DNA from: Gemmatimonadota bacterium
GTDB lineage: Bacteria; JAAXHH01
Assembly (NCBI GenBank): GCA_009838645.1
Contig: VXRC01000023.1
Coordinates: 1-35,679 of the forward strand
Reading direction: 5' to 3'
DNA length: 35,679 nucleotides
Each line of letters begins with the position of its first letter. Position 1 is the first letter of the stretch. Both the position numbers and the translations under genes were made by a program. Below the pieces are notes generated by a model, which was not told where the DNA came from, did not search any database, and saw nothing but the letters and a program-made list of their open reading frames with translations. Of the stretch, positions 9,831 to 16,588 are shown piece by piece.

Positions 9831-11066
9831 TCAACCGGGCAGGCAAATCTTGCCCAGCACCGCGGGCCGGTCCGCGCCCGTGGCTCCTGGAAGACTGCCC
9901 GGCCTGCCCCGGACCGTCCGGTCGGCGAGTACCGCGAACGCCACGGCCTCCTTGGCGTCCGAAGACAGGCCGTGATCATCCGATGTGGATACCTCGGCAG
10001 GCGCCAGCACCCGGGCGAGTCGCTCGAGCAGAAAACCGTTTCTGGCGCCGCCGCCGCTCACGATCAATTCGTCCAGCCGCGTGACGACGGGAATGACGAA
10101 CCGTCGACAGGCGTCCTCAATGGAACGAACGGTGATTTCCGTGGCGGTCGCAAGCATATCCTCGCTACTGAGCCCGGCCTCCCGCCCCGCGCGGACCAGA
10201 TCCGACGCGCACCGGTCTCCGAAAAGTTCCCGGCCCGTGGACTTGGGCGGAGGCCGCTCGAAGTAAGGCATGACCAGCGCGTCCGCCACCAGGTTTTCGG
10301 CGGGCCTGCCGCGCCTTGCGGCCGCGCCATCCGCATCCATGTCGCGTCCCAGTTCCGCGCGGGCGACGGCATCGATCAGCATGTTGGCCGGGCCCGTATC
10401 GAAAGCCAGCACGTCATCGGGTTTCGGGTCCACGGGCAGCACCGTGAGATTCGCGATTCCCCCCAGATTCAGGAGTGCCCGGACCTTTTCGGGATGCCCG
10501 AAGAGCAGGTAGTCCACATAGGGTACAAGCGGAGCGCCCTGTCCGCCCCGGGCCACGTCCGCCGCCCGGAAGTCGCCAACCGTCACCACGCCGGTCCGCT
10601 GGGCGATCACCGAAGGATCGCCGATCTGCAGCGTCGCCCCGGTTTCCACGCCGAATCTGTTTTTCCGATCGGGGAGATGCTGGACAGTCTGGCCGTGGGA
10701 ACCGATGAGATCGATCTCCTCCATGGACAGTCCGGCGGAATCCGCAACGACGAAAGCCGCGCTGGCAAAGAGTTCCCCCAGCTCGAAATGCAGCCGGCTC
10801 AACTCGTCGGTCCTGCCGGTCTTCGAATCGGAGACTTCCATCAGCCGATTGCGCAGGCCGGGTGGAAAGGCCACCGTGTCGAAGCCCAAAACGTCCAGGG
10901 AAAGCCCGTCGTCTTTTTCGCCCAGCAGTATCACAGCCGCGTCGATCCCATCGGCGGACGTTCCCGACATCAGCCCGATGATCCGGCGGTCATGTGTGGT
11001 CTGGAATCCCGATAACACGACAGCGCTGCCTCGCACGACTGGTTGTGCTACTTGCCACCAGGTCAT
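9831..11066 (-). CDS. anmK: Anhydro-N-acetylmuramic acid kinase
   Basis: Converts 1,6-anhydroMurNAc plus ATP and water to MurNAc-6-phosphate in cytoplasmic cell-wall recycling. The ASKHA-type kinase fold shows GLMSGTSADGIDAA near the N-terminus, IGSHGQTVQHLP, FDTGPANMLIDA and the C-terminal IVSGGGARNGFLLERL, all family signatures. At 411 residues it is slightly longer than usual because about 30 residues precede the first motif; the ATG at 11066 has no clear ribosome site and an internal GTG could be the true start. It heads a minus-strand run with a SpoIID-domain lipoprotein and an LptE-like lipoprotein, placing recycling of anhydro-muropeptides beside a glycan-strand-binding protein. No murQ or nagZ is in the window. 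Confidence 0.93.
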   Translation of the reverse strand: MTWWQVAQPVVRGSAVVLSGFQTTHDRRIIGLMSGTSADGIDAAVILLGEKDDGLSLDVLGFDTVAFPPGLRNRLMEVSDSKTGRTDELSRLHFELGELFASAAFVVADSAGLSMEEIDLIGSHGQTVQHLPDRKNRFGVETGATLQIGDPSVIAQRTGVVTVGDFRAADVARGGQGAPLVPYVDYLLFGHPEKVRALLNLGGIANLTVLPVDPKPDDVLAFDTGPANMLIDAVARAELGRDMDADGAAARRGRPAENLVADALVMPYFERPPPKSTGRELFGDRCASDLVRAGREAGLSSEDMLATATEITVRSIEDACRRFVIPVVTRLDELIVSGGGARNGFLLERLARVLAPAEVSTSDDHGLSSDAKEAVAFAVLADRTVRGRPGSLPGATGADRPAVLGKICLPG

Positions 11067-12658: not shown

Positions 12659-12850
12659 TCACGAGCGATTCTCGACACCCGACAGTGCATTTTCGAAATG
12701 TTGGATGGCACGCTCGAATTTCTCGAGGCAACCTGGATTGCAGAACCCCACAACATGTCCGTCAAATTCAGTCAGTGAATCGCCCTGTACCGGCTTGCCG
12801 GACCAGGGACAGGTCTCATTGATGCAGTCGGCGATGTCGAGCACGGGCAT
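12659..12850 (-). CDS. Small four-cysteine YHS/TRASH-like protein
   Basis: A 63-residue protein with cysteines at 9, 14, 37 and 41. The segments TCPWSGKPV and GFCNPGCLEKF resemble the YHS/TRASH class of small metal-binding domains, so a zinc, copper or iron ligand set is likely (inference). Two in-frame ATGs compete: 12856 overlaps the upstream stop as ATGA, but the GAGGAGG ribosome site ends one base before it, whereas the ATG at 12850 is seven bases away, so 12850 is chosen. The gene is translationally linked to the Rieske protein, and the two probably act together, for instance in metal delivery or sensing. Terminator hairpin downstream. Confidence 0.75.
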   Translation of the reverse strand: MPVLDIADCINETCPWSGKPVQGDSLTEFDGHVVGFCNPGCLEKFERAIQHFENALSGVENRS

Positions 12851-12852
12851 TG

Positions 12853-14622
12853 TCATTCCTCCTCGTACAGCGCTTCGCCGCGGCTCAGCCGCAGCGCGAT
12901 CTGCGCGGTCTGGTTGAGCGCCCGCTGCGTGGGGGCGTGGGCGGCGAGATACCGGGCCGTGGCGATCAGCATGTGGTCGGCCTCGGCGCGTCCCTTCAGT
13001 TCCTCGTATTGCCGGATGCCGGCCTCGAGCATCTGGAAGCTGTGGAACTCGGCATCCTCCCGTAACAGCGAGATCGCCAGCGTGCGGAACAGCCGGTCCA
13101 CGGGGTGCCCGTCGGCCAGGTAACGATAGACCAGCCTGGCGGCCGGCTCCACCTGCTGCTGCGTGTCCAGTTCGGTCAGAAACGCGTCGAGTATCTCGTC
13201 GGTCTCACCGGCGAGATCGGCCGTGGCCCGGTCGCCCGGCAACCGCGCGGGCGGCACGTTGAGGAAACGGTCCAGGTACACGGCCATGGCGCCGTGGAAG
13301 ACGCCGCGGACCAGTTCCGGCGAACCCGTCCGCTTCAGGGCCTGGTGCAGGGCGTTCGCATACGTGAAGGTGTGCAGCACCGTGATCCAGTCGTTGAACT
13401 CGTTCTGGGTGTGGAACCGGGCGATGCACAGCGCGGCGGCATAGGTGACCGCCTGGCTGAGCTGCAGCGGCGTCATGCCGTCTCGAAGCCGGGCCAGCAT
13501 GGCGTCCACCGTGGCCTGGGGATCGTCCCCGAGGATCACTTCAGCCAGCTCACCGGGGCCGTCCCACGCATAGCCATTGGACGTCGATGCCAGCGCGCCG
13601 GGCAGCTCGGCATTCGCCCCTCGAAGAATGGCGGCCAGGTCGACGGGATGGCGCCAGGCGTTTCGCTCCTCGCTGCGCGCCGCGGCGCAAAGCTGACCGA
13701 CCGTGCTGGGCAGCACTTCATCGGCGTGTTCCCAGCCGATGTGGTCCAGCAGTTCCGTGGACTTGTTGATGAAATCCGCGACGTGACCGCCGTCCAGGAA
13801 CACGTGGTCCGTGGCGGCGCTCGTCATCATGTCCACCAGCAGCGCGGGTTCGCAGTCCATGGACACGGCCGTGAGCAGGCACCGCGTAGCGCCTTCGGTG
13901 TCGCGCACCTCGACGAAACGGCGGAACCAGCGCTTCAGCTGTTCGAAGGACAGGTTCTCCGTATCCAGGGGTTGAAGGTCGAACCGCGGCGGCTGTCCGT
14001 TGCTGTCCCGGGCGACGTGCGTCAATCCCTGGTAGAGCGGGAGGATCTGCTCGTCTCTGGGCAGATAGCCGCACAGGTTCGTCATCGCGGTCAGAATGGT
14101 CAGGCCGGGGCCCCATCCGGACGACCGGTACCGTACGCCGTACCGGCCGCCGGTCGCGGCGATATCCTTGTAGGACACCCCCGATTTCAGCAGGGCGATC
14201 ACGGCCTTGGCGTTGACCAGCGAGATGTTCTGCTCCAGGCCTTCCCTCAGGCGGTTGCGCCAGTACTCCGCGTCGCCCGACTGGTCCCGCGACCCCGAAA
14301 CCCATACATCCCCGTTCCGGGTCTCGACCGCGTACACCGGCACGTCGTCCGCGAAGAGATCGAAGGTGCAGCCGCTCTCCAGGTCGAAGTCCGCGTGGTG
14401 CCAGTGGCAGGTCAGAATGCCGTCCTTGATCGTGCCGCGGTGCAACGGAAAGCCCATGTGGGGACATCGGTTGTCCACGGCGTGCACCTGCCCGTCGTCG
14501 TGGTGGAACACGGCGATCGGACCGTCGTTGCCGTTGACGACCATGCTCCCCTTCTCCTTCAGTTCGTCCACCGATGCGACCCGGATCGGGTCGCGCAAGG
14601 CTGTCCTCGGGGTGCCATTCAT
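12853..14622 (-). CDS. Rieske [2Fe-2S] protein with large helical C-terminal region
   Basis: 589 residues from the ATG at 14622, chosen for GAGGAG seven bases upstream; the frame is open to 14721 but those residues look non-coding. Residues 12-105 form a Rieske domain with cluster ligands C53-x-H55 and C72-x2-H75 (CPHMGFPLHRG, CHWHHADFD). The remaining 480 residues are mostly helix-like, with no 2-His-1-carboxylate motif of ring-hydroxylating oxygenases that I can see, so it is probably not a standard oxygenase alpha subunit. His-rich pieces (FLDGGHVADF, LCIARFHTQNEF, AVYLDRFL) might form another cofactor site. It is followed by a small four-Cys protein with a 4-bp start/stop overlap and is divergent from a SufR-like regulator, suggesting Fe-S or redox control. 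Confidence 0.85.
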   Translation of the reverse strand: MNGTPRTALRDPIRVASVDELKEKGSMVVNGNDGPIAVFHHDDGQVHAVDNRCPHMGFPLHRGTIKDGILTCHWHHADFDLESGCTFDLFADDVPVYAVETRNGDVWVSGSRDQSGDAEYWRNRLREGLEQNISLVNAKAVIALLKSGVSYKDIAATGGRYGVRYRSSGWGPGLTILTAMTNLCGYLPRDEQILPLYQGLTHVARDSNGQPPRFDLQPLDTENLSFEQLKRWFRRFVEVRDTEGATRCLLTAVSMDCEPALLVDMMTSAATDHVFLDGGHVADFINKSTELLDHIGWEHADEVLPSTVGQLCAAARSEERNAWRHPVDLAAILRGANAELPGALASTSNGYAWDGPGELAEVILGDDPQATVDAMLARLRDGMTPLQLSQAVTYAAALCIARFHTQNEFNDWITVLHTFTYANALHQALKRTGSPELVRGVFHGAMAVYLDRFLNVPPARLPGDRATADLAGETDEILDAFLTELDTQQQVEPAARLVYRYLADGHPVDRLFRTLAISLLREDAEFHSFQMLEAGIRQYEELKGRAEADHMLIATARYLAAHAPTQRALNQTAQIALRLSRGEALYEEE

Positions 14623-14692
14623 GGTATTTCTCCTCAGGCTGCAATGTGATGACCGTGCAGTGTATCTGAATGGAATATACGTCTTACCATTC

Positions 14693-14721
14693 AATATAGG
14701 CACTCCAAACCAATAAATCAA
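14693..14721 (-). promoter_or_regulatory. Rieske-gene promoter in divergent AT-rich region
   Basis: On the minus strand TTGATT (14721-14716) and TATATT (14698-14693) are spaced by exactly 17 bp, giving a leader of about 65 bases. The surrounding 14690-14790 is the most AT-rich stretch nearby and contains an imperfect palindrome around ATAATATTATGTATATAAT (14721-14739), a plausible operator for the divergent regulator. A weaker plus-strand pair TTGTTC (14754-14759), 18 bp, TTACAT (14778-14783) could drive the regulator gene. Confidence 0.5.
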
Positions 14722-14858
14722 TAATATTATGTATATAATTTATTATTTTTTTATTGTTCCATATTTGAGAAAGCACGTTACATTTAAATAGAGATGCACG
14801 CGAAACAGGCATCGGATCTGCATTGGACAACCAGGCGCTTCGTTTTCGGAGAATGAAC

Positions 14859-15485
14859 ATGGCACACACTGAAGGCACCACCCGCCGTCAGATCCTGGAA
14901 TTGCTCAAACGCAAGGGCGAAATGACTGCCGGTCAACTCGCCAGGGAGATCGGGATCACTTCGATGGGCGTACGCCAGCACCTCAGCGGTCTGGAGCGCG
15001 ACGACTTGGTCGAGACGCGGGTCGTGCGGCAGGACAGGGGAAGGCCCGCCCACTATTTCGTCCTGACGGATGCTGCGGAGCGCCTGTTCCCGGTACGGTA
15101 CGGCCAGCTCGCGGTTGAACTGCTCGAGCAGATCGCCGAAACCGACGGACCGGAGAAGGTCGACAGCCTTTTCACCTCGCGCACGGAGCGGCTTGAAGCG
15201 GAATACAAACTTCAGATGTCCGGGCAGCCGGTCTCGGAACAGGTGCGCGTTCTCGCTGAAATCCGGGACCAGGAGGGATACATGGCCGAATCCCACGCGG
15301 ACGGCGATGAATACATCCTGGTGGAACACCACTGTCCGATCTACGAAATAGCGCGCCGTTTCCCGAAGGTCTGCCAGTTCGAACAGGAATTGTTCGAACG
15401 TACGCTCGATGCCGGGGTGCACAGGGACGAGCACAAGATAGCTGGAGACGACCGCTGCCGCTATCTGGTACGGAAACGCGACTAG
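14859..15485 (+). CDS. SufR-like winged-helix Fe-S-sensing regulator
   Basis: A 208-residue DNA-binding regulator of the COG2345 type. Residues 8-70 are a winged helix (ILELLKRKGEMTAGQLAREIGITSMGVRQHL; wing RQDRGRPAHYFVLT). The C-terminal part carries C159-x12-C172-x19-H192-x7-C200 within HHCPIYEIARRFPKVC and AGDDRCRY, the region where SufR-family repressors bind an iron-sulfur cluster. His192 stands where I would expect a further cysteine in many members (from memory). The ATG at 14859 has GGAG seven bases upstream; ATG 14853 is too close to it. Divergent from the Rieske/four-Cys pair, which it most simply regulates. No suf genes are in the window. Confidence 0.85.
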   Translation: MAHTEGTTRRQILELLKRKGEMTAGQLAREIGITSMGVRQHLSGLERDDLVETRVVRQDRGRPAHYFVLTDAAERLFPVRYGQLAVELLEQIAETDGPEKVDSLFTSRTERLEAEYKLQMSGQPVSEQVRVLAEIRDQEGYMAESHADGDEYILVEHHCPIYEIARRFPKVCQFEQELFERTLDAGVHRDEHKIAGDDRCRYLVRKRD

Positions 15486-15562: not shown

Positions 15563-16588
15563 ATGAACAAACCACGCATCTGGTACCTGCCGACACCGTC
15601 CCACACCGCCGGGGTTTTCAAGGATGAGACTTACCGACGGTTACTGGCCGGCTTCGACGTGGTGGAGAACAGGATGGACCGCGCGTTGACCGCTGGCGAG
15701 GTGGAGGAAGGCATAGCCGGTTTCGATGGACTGGTCACCGGATGGGGTGTCATGCCTTTGAGCGCAACAGCCTTGGAGCGGGCGGACAGGTTGAAGATCG
15801 TCGTCCACTCCGCCGGCTCGGTCAAGTACCTGTTCACTTCGGAGATGGTCACCAGCCAACTGTTGCCCAGGGGAATACGCGTCGTCAGCGCGCGGGGCGC
15901 CATCGCCCTCAACGTGGCGGAACACGCGGTCGGCGCCTTGATCATGATGAGCCGCAGGTGGGTCCATGACGCCCTCAATATCCGTAACAGGGGCATGTGG
16001 CGGGATCCGGACAAGAACTGGTCGAACCAGTTCCTGCGCGGCGCCACGGTGGGGATCGTCAGCGCCAGCATGGTGGGACGGGAGGTGATCCGGCTGCTCC
16101 GGCCCTTTAACGTCCGCACGCTCGTCTACGACCCCTGCCTGAGCGATTGGGACGCCGGCCGCATGAACGTGGAAAGGGTAGACCTGAACACGCTCTTCGA
16201 GTCGTCGGACATGGTGACTGTCCACGCGCCGTCCATCCCGGAGACGGACCGCATGATCGGCGCGGAGCAACTGCGGCTATTGAGGGACGACGGCGTCCTG
16301 GTCAACACCTCGCGGGGCTCCGTCCTGGACCACGATGCGCTTTACGAAGAAGCGAAGACGGGCAGGATCCAGGTCCAGCTGGACGTGACCACGCCCGAAC
16401 CCCTGCCGCCCGACCACCGATTGCGCGCGCTCCCTAACGTCGTCATCACGCCTCACAGCTCAGGCACCGGTGCTTACGGCCACCTCGAGATCGGCGAGAT
16501 CACGCTGGCCGCGCTGGAACACTTCTTCTCGGGACGGGAACCGGTACCGGGGGAGGTGGACCTGGAAAAATGGGCGCAGATCGCGTAG
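15563..16588 (+). CDS. D-2-hydroxyacid dehydrogenase family protein
   Basis: A 341-residue NAD-dependent D-isomer-specific dehydrogenase (phosphoglycerate dehydrogenase/glyoxylate reductase superfamily). The NAD-binding loop is VGIVSASMVG (163-172), followed by YDPCLS with D190 for NAD preference. Catalytic residues fall in NTSRGS (R251), TTPEPLPPDH (E279) and ITPHSSG (H298). The second loop glycine is replaced by serine (GIVSAS instead of GIVGxG), seen in some actinobacterial-like members. The ATG at 15563 has only a weak GGGAC upstream. It lies 77 bp behind the regulator, with the duplicated segment between, so read-through is possible. Substrate unknown; no serA-type ACT domain. Confidence 0.88.
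   Translation: MNKPRIWYLPTPSHTAGVFKDETYRRLLAGFDVVENRMDRALTAGEVEEGIAGFDGLVTGWGVMPLSATALERADRLKIVVHSAGSVKYLFTSEMVTSQLLPRGIRVVSARGAIALNVAEHAVGALIMMSRRWVHDALNIRNRGMWRDPDKNWSNQFLRGATVGIVSASMVGREVIRLLRPFNVRTLVYDPCLSDWDAGRMNVERVDLNTLFESSDMVTVHAPSIPETDRMIGAEQLRLLRDDGVLVNTSRGSVLDHDALYEEAKTGRIQVQLDVTTPEPLPPDHRLRALPNVVITPHSSGTGAYGHLEIGEITLAALEHFFSGREPVPGEVDLEKWAQIA

Follow-up and report, generated by a model that had tools for sequence, protein, structure and literature searches.

In cyanobacteria the iron-sulfur (Fe-S) sensor SufR is encoded divergently upstream of the suf genes and represses both those genes and itself (PMC7058544), and in the SufR of Mycobacterium tuberculosis (Rv1460) the cysteines C203, C216 and C244 are functionally required (PMC6034842). 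SoxR regulons outside the enteric bacteria are small; they comprise transporters as well as redox enzymes, among which are a monooxygenase and a quinone oxidoreductase, and their inducers are redox-active metabolites such as actinorhodin (PMC4146615). The locus described here lies at positions 12659-15485 of a 35,679-nucleotide stretch from a Gemmatimonadota bacterium (contig VXRC01000023.1, positions 1 to 35,679; this whole stretch is referred to as the window). It places a SufR-like regulator gene opposite the gene of a Rieske protein with a long helical C-terminal region, which is followed by the gene of a small four-cysteine protein. These three genes had been described at these coordinates in an initial annotation of the DNA, and all three were confirmed. 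The data presented here suggest that the Rieske protein is a single-chain, Rieske-fed oxygenase under the control of an Fe-S sensor and acts on redox-cycling (quinone-like) compounds, a reading to which we give a probability of about 0.5.

The regulator aligned end to end with the SufR model TIGR02702 (E=8e-42), although its score of 143 bits is under the curated cut-off of 178.8. Its C-terminal cysteines C159, C172 and C200 have the same spacing (x12 and x27) as C203, C216 and C244 of Rv1460, which bears out the SufR-type ligand set that the initial annotation had recognized. It is the sole SufR-family gene in each of the 11 genus genomes searched and is divergent from the Rieske gene in 10 of them; for the eleventh (G007) the retrieved locus stops shortly past the SufR-like gene and the Rieske gene is not on it. 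The divergent pairing is also kept in a further genus of the family (L009), where the Rieske protein is 71% identical. The divergent arrangement of the Rieske gene with a regulator gene of the Fe-S-sensor type is conserved within this lineage. When the neighbourhood was compared across genomes, as the initial annotation had proposed, the pair was recovered in every genus genome with both sides visible, but the three-gene set was not. The suf operon of the same genome (L140, on contig G000:C49) has the order Rrf2-sufB-sufC-sufD-sufS, with a regulator of the Rrf2 type, and is on a separate contig from the Rieske locus. In the window genome the SufR-like gene is not linked to this operon, and because the suf genes are found beside an Rrf2 gene on C49, the SufR-like protein is by position not the local suf regulator.

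A different regulator holds the same place in a sister lineage. At six loci of another Latescibacterota clade, in which the Rieske protein is 57% identical, the divergent gene encodes SoxR, with about 197-200 bits to TIGR01950 (E about 1e-59, cut-off 116.9) in the three proteins scanned and the CX2CXCX5C motif in 6/6 loci (CIGCGCLSLRLC). A SoxR-box palindrome (CTTCAAGTATACTTGAAG) is present in the gap between SoxR and the Rieske gene, where the perfect palindrome ACTTCAAGTATACTTGAAGT was found in five of the six loci and with one change in the sixth. In the Rieske direction the box comes after TTGACT, and by our own reading a weak -10-like hexamer follows 19 nucleotides further. The box was a single site in 5/5 genomes of 5.0-6.3 Mb when at most two mismatches to the local box were allowed, a search that more divergent boxes would escape, and each of these genomes has one SoxR above the cut-off, adjoining the box. 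In a maximum-likelihood tree the SufR-paired and SoxR-paired Rieske proteins form separate, fully supported clades, and with a midpoint root the SoxR clade is more distant from the SufR clade than are the proteins of Bacilli, haloarchaea and others. These separate divergent pairings mean that two unrelated Fe-S sensors face the same enzyme gene. It is likely that the Rieske gene is regulated by the sensor that faces it, and the data suggest a dedicated response to redox-active chemicals. The SoxR lineage appears to have a simple one-sensor, one-target circuit that hints at the substrate class, and the exchange of SufR for SoxR suggests that the presumed signal, damage to Fe-S clusters by redox-active compounds, outweighs the identity of the sensor. 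We know of no description of a Rieske-fused enzyme as a SoxR target.

The initial annotation had proposed a self-controlled redox or iron-homeostasis system. In a module of iron or Fe-S homeostasis the Rieske protein would be a reporter or storage partner, the four-cysteine protein a metal binder and the SufR-like protein the sensor. All parts do carry metal or cluster ligands, and SufR-type sensors elsewhere govern Fe-S assembly. However, the suf operon is on another contig and has its own Rrf2-type regulator, and the sister lineage has SoxR, a redox-drug sensor whose signal is redox-active compounds rather than iron, and for these reasons iron homeostasis is not favoured. In addition, the four-cysteine gene was found in only 4/12 genus genomes and most homologues are without such neighbours, so that this module is quite improbable. 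What stood of the proposed three-part system is the Rieske/regulator pair, which is conserved in the lineage; the three-gene module as a general system was rejected, given the patchy four-cysteine gene and the lack of fixed neighbours elsewhere.

The Rieske protein has two clearly distinct parts. PF00355 matched residues 13-85 of its 589 amino acids (aa; E=5e-16), and an AlphaFold2 model based on a 41-sequence alignment (predicted local distance difference test, pLDDT, 88.4 over the full length and 88.5 over the C-terminal domain, or C-domain) predicts that the Rieske domain is small and of beta structure and that the C-domain behind it is all-helical, in agreement with the Rieske domain and 480-residue helical region first annotated. 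The Rieske domain was the only Pfam match in the window protein and 40 homologues, and no Pfam, NCBIfam or PDB-sequence match was found for the C-terminal 480 residues. The Rieske ligands C53, H55, C72 and H75 (CxH...CxxH) are unchanged in 41/41 family members. In the C-domain, about 30 polar positions, in many cases His, Asp or Glu, are invariant in 38/38 core members from bacteria and archaea, and K139, H280, D283, K287, E290, E318, E319, H417, H527 and Q530 are among the positions invariant in all 38.

A fold search with the C-domain model gave 8yxs as the top match (E 5.4e-3, probability 1.00, 465 aligned columns, template modelling (TM) score 0.38-0.40). The second match had an E of only 0.13, and the remaining Foldseek matches were generic helical proteins of low confidence; a search with the full-length model returned Rieske proteins only, and the viral library gave nothing. 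The title of 8yxs is 'non-heme iron dioxygenase' and its chain is listed as oxidoreductase AflY. Because a profile of PF14027-type proteins matches 8yxs together with BTG13 and the hydroquinone dioxygenase PaD, 8yxs can be placed in the questin-oxidase family, whose 8yxs/PaD/BTG13-type enzymes act on hydroquinones and anthraquinones. The structure check that had been suggested for the 480-residue region returned a dioxygenase as a remote match, and the region itself belongs to no Pfam family. A profile-profile comparison with questin oxidases gave P=0.017, with 1/120 column-shuffled controls scoring as high, and is suggestive only; its strongest local match sits on an LHxxT motif that is conserved in both families. 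In alignments read by eye, three motifs are colinear with the fungal enzymes, and at motif 2 the pattern H273..DGGH.(A/L)DF aligns with HPLIQLGFGIEF of BTG13 and HGIIHIGMALEF of PaD. The ordered three-motif pattern, which was defined after looking, occurs in 18/41 family members, 0/342 background open reading frames and 0/20,500 shuffles; the window protein itself does not have it, with an Ala at one position. The C-domain quite probably shares its fold with the questin oxidases, and on balance it probably holds a catalytic metal. The initial statement that no oxygenase iron motif is visible is correct as regards the classical motif of Rieske oxygenases. The C-domain does, however, have a strictly conserved set of His, Asp and Glu residues, and its best match by fold is to a non-heme iron dioxygenase.

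Two other views of the C-domain have to be weighed against this. One holds that the C-domain is enzymatic but not related to questin oxidases: it would be a helical metal enzyme of a separate kind or would use another cofactor, the Rieske electrons would be fed into a different reaction, and the redox regulators would report a toxic substrate or product. This would fit the remoteness of the likeness to 8yxs (TM 0.40) and the fact that no family gave a significant profile match, but the colinear motifs fall at positions conserved in fungal questin-type enzymes and the independent fold search chose the same superfamily, and we regard this view as credible but unlikely. The other is that the protein is no oxygenase at all and works as a Rieske hub for electron transfer or as an adaptor that senses redox state, with the helical domain as a HEAT-like docking scaffold that carries no metal. 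The all-helical C-domain with its otherwise generic helical matches, the lack of conserved partner enzymes, and paralogues in which the scaffold persists with the Rieske site kept and the His residues lost all agree with such a role. However, some 30 invariant polar residues in 38/38 core members exceed what a scaffold needs and the top fold match is an iron dioxygenase, which makes a hub or adaptor improbable.

The model preferred here is that of an oxygenase. Its Rieske [2Fe-2S] domain would receive electrons from a reductase and hand them on to the helical C-domain, where a non-heme metal would activate O2 and a redox-active substrate, an aromatic or quinone-like compound, would be oxidized. 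The SufR-like protein would be a dedicated repressor and autoregulator whose cluster-bound form binds the AT-rich divergent promoter region, and oxidative or redox-cycling stress would strip or oxidize the cluster and derepress both genes. In the sister lineage SoxR may have the equivalent role by activation through its box, and the four-cysteine protein may be a dispensable, lineage-specific accessory that binds metal or thiols. In this model we infer the catalytic metal, the O2 chemistry, the substrate and the sense of SufR regulation. Since SoxR regulons include redox enzymes and the fold match is to enzymes of hydroquinones and anthraquinones, the simplest joint reading is an oxygenase that destroys or modifies redox-cycling aromatics, draws its electrons through its own Rieske domain and is made once such compounds disturb an Fe-S sensor.

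Several observations weigh against this model. The TM score to 8yxs is below 0.5, BTG13 and PaD were outside the 50 best C-domain fold matches, and PF14027 had no match at E<=1 in any of the 41 members and none in the bacterium's own genome. H273 and H417 are absent from a divergent homologue (L096) in which the Rieske site is intact, and the paralogues in the same genome keep the Rieske site while most of the His set is absent. Among the homologue loci compared, neither a reductase gene nor a gene of a substrate pathway is conserved beside the Rieske gene. On the regulatory side, the intergenic region contains several dyads that could serve as a SufR operator, none of them kept across all relatives, and the repressing rather than activating sense of the SufR-like protein is our inference. 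A broader proposal, somewhat less probable than not, is that the family is a new class of Rieske-coupled oxygenase whose helical iron domain is of the questin-oxidase type but has different ligands (K139 and Gln530 for the His and carboxylated Lys of BTG13), and which is widespread in bacteria and haloarchaea and has twice, independently, become the dedicated output of an Fe-S stress sensor, SufR-like in one case and the unrelated SoxR in the other. The evidence connects a 480-residue domain without a Pfam entry with non-heme iron oxygenase chemistry and redox-stress sensing, and to our knowledge this would be the first protein of the questin-oxidase fold to be fed by a Rieske domain.

Coordinates of the features of the Rieske/SufR-like locus in the window
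Feature	Position	Strand	Remarks
Four-Cys TRASH/YHS-like mini-protein, 63 aa	12659..12850	-	ATG 12850; alternative in-frame ATG 12856
Rieske-helical protein, 589 aa	12853..14622	-	ATG 14622; AGGAGA ribosome-binding site 5' of start
C-terminal all-helical domain, residues 113-589	12856..14286	-	no Pfam family; top fold match 8yxs
Candidate metal-site motif 4, R521-Q530 (REDAEFHSFQ)	13033..13062	-	cf. DDGHLAK of BTG13
Candidate metal-site motif 3, VLHTFT (H417)	13363..13380	-	cf. fungal LHSVT / MHMVT; best profile-profile match
Candidate metal-site motif 2, H273 to F284 (HVFLDGGHVADF)	13771..13806	-	cf. fungal HPLIQLGFGIEF / HGIIHIGMALEF; post hoc comparison
K139 codon	14206..14208	-	residue invariant in 41/41 family members, paralogues included
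Rieske [2Fe-2S] domain, residues 13-109	14296..14586	-	ligands C53, H55, C72, H75
Divergent intergenic region, 236 bp	14623..14858	.	AT-rich core about 14700-14779; conserved in genus
Candidate operator, imperfect 27-bp dyad TGAATGGAATATACGTCTTACCATTCA	14667..14693	.	just downstream of Rieske -10
Sigma-70-like candidate promoter of Rieske gene, TTGATT-17-TATATT	14693..14721	-	consensus match
Candidate promoter of SufR-like gene, conserved TTGTTC ... TTACA(A)T	14754..14783	+	inferred by eye
SufR-like winged-helix regulator, 208 aa; helix-turn-helix residues 8-54	14859..15485	+	Pfam and TIGR02702
Cluster-ligand set C159-x12-C172-x27-C200	15333..15458	+	invariant in 12/12 aligned homologues

The divergence across an AT-rich region was correctly described from the start, with the G+C fraction falling to 0.07 at 14720-14759. 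Sigma-70-like consensus matches number three in this region, against 0.4 expected. The palindrome of the candidate operator is clear solely in the closest relatives of the window, and an element at 14674-14698 that overlaps it occurs once per genome, though a single occurrence of a 25-bp pattern proves little.

The four-cysteine protein was rightly given 63 residues and four Cys, but its proposed coupling to the Rieske gene by a 4-bp overlap did not hold up. The ATG at 12856, the start that makes the ATGA overlap, is absent from the close relative L001, in which the ATG at 12850 is kept; the latter is found 7 nucleotides after AGGAGG and 2 nucleotides after the Rieske stop. Because only this second ATG is conserved and AGGAGG lies 7 nucleotides ahead of it, the protein is read as 63 aa from 12850. 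It is under purifying selection (ratio of nonsynonymous to synonymous substitution rates, dN/dS, 0.17-0.38 against three relatives), and its pattern C-x4-C-x22-C-x3-C, with CPWSGKPV...GFCNPGC, is conserved in four genomes. It scored below the gathering score for both YHS (E=0.0011) and TRASH_HVO_1752_C (E=0.0044); it shares the four-Cys pattern of TRASH/YHS domains but is a free-standing protein. This protein is a lineage-specific addition. The sole relative found on plasmids is a similar four-Cys tail at the C-terminus of a glutathione S-transferase from Rhodobacter (53% identity over 34 aa; L141:178-1053), in which Pfam names the glutathione S-transferase parts only.

The Rieske-helical family is common yet unnamed, and its usual annotation is merely 'Rieske (2Fe-2S) protein'. 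Family loci were confirmed at 126 places in GTDB genomes, and the 80 kept are from metagenome-assembled genomes of Latescibacterota/'Gemmatimonadetes', Poribacteria, Bacilli and haloarchaea; plasmid-borne members were found in rhizobia, Paraburkholderia, cyanobacteria, Priestia and haloarchaea. Among the homologue loci compared, the neighbours of the Rieske gene are not fixed outside the two Latescibacterota lineages. On Halorussus and Haladaptatus plasmids (L107 and L164) the genes for both subunits, alpha and beta, of a class I ribonucleotide reductase come after the Rieske gene, and on Nostoc and Gloeothece plasmids (L106 and L163) the Rieske gene adjoins a short-chain dehydrogenase/reductase (SDR) oxidoreductase gene, on opposite sides in the two. 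In one Brevibacillus locus a SufR-like gene (41% identical; L080:6103-6708) lies 1.6 kb downstream of the Rieske gene, which is not seen in other Brevibacillus loci. An alpha/beta-hydrolase was considered as a ring-cleavage partner in Microvirga and Paraburkholderia and rejected, as the two hydrolases are unrelated. In the window a 2-hydroxyacid dehydrogenase gene (15563-16588) is directly 3' of the SufR-like gene, a position kept throughout the genus. A gene of this kind comes after the regulator in the SoxR clade as well as in the SufR clade. Because the copies of the two clades are only 30% identical and not orthologous, it was rejected as a conserved partner. The paralogues in the same genome are a tandem pair on the minus strand (L139, G000:C17, 1548-3299 and 3383-5179; 26-28% identical to the Rieske-helical protein) with intact Rieske sites and most C-domain His gone, adjoining a sulfite-oxidase-like molybdenum enzyme (207-1502); similar pairs occur elsewhere in the genus and in G054. 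Further away in the window, 9831-11066 on the minus strand is by appearance a candidate anhydro-N-acetylmuramic acid kinase (start ...GLMSGTSADGIDAA).

Like the alpha subunits of Rieske non-heme iron oxygenases (RHO), the protein combines an N-terminal Rieske domain and a larger C-terminal domain in one chain. However, its C-domain is all-helical rather than a mixed helix-grip fold, and the classical 2-His-1-carboxylate motif was not recognized. Classical RHO membership was rejected, as there is no C-terminal RHO Pfam model in the 41 members and no RHO match in the fold search with the C-domain. The questin oxidases (DUF4243, PF14027: BTG13 7y3w-y, AflY 8yxs, PaD 8z4q-s) provide the top fold match across nearly the whole C-domain, and in alignments read by eye the H..L(E/D)F, LHxxT and (E/D)DxxH motifs come in the same order in both, but the C-domain is Rieske-fused, has no PF14027 match and is about 130 residues longer than bacterial members. 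In the motif alignment Gln530 is paired with the lysine that is carboxylated in BTG13, and the N-terminal His motif of questin oxidases is not recognized in the Rieske protein, where K139 is nearby. The regulator resembles SufR of cyanobacteria and Rv1460 in its full-length alignment, winged helix, Cys spacing and divergent position upstream of a presumed target, but it differs in its sub-cut-off score and in having a Rieske enzyme gene rather than sufBCDS as its partner. The sister lineage resembles the small SoxR regulons of Streptomyces coelicolor and Pseudomonas aeruginosa in having a true SoxR, a SoxR box and what appears to be a single target, a redox enzyme; it differs from them in that the target is Rieske-fused and that in the window lineage the slot of SoxR is held by a SufR-like protein.

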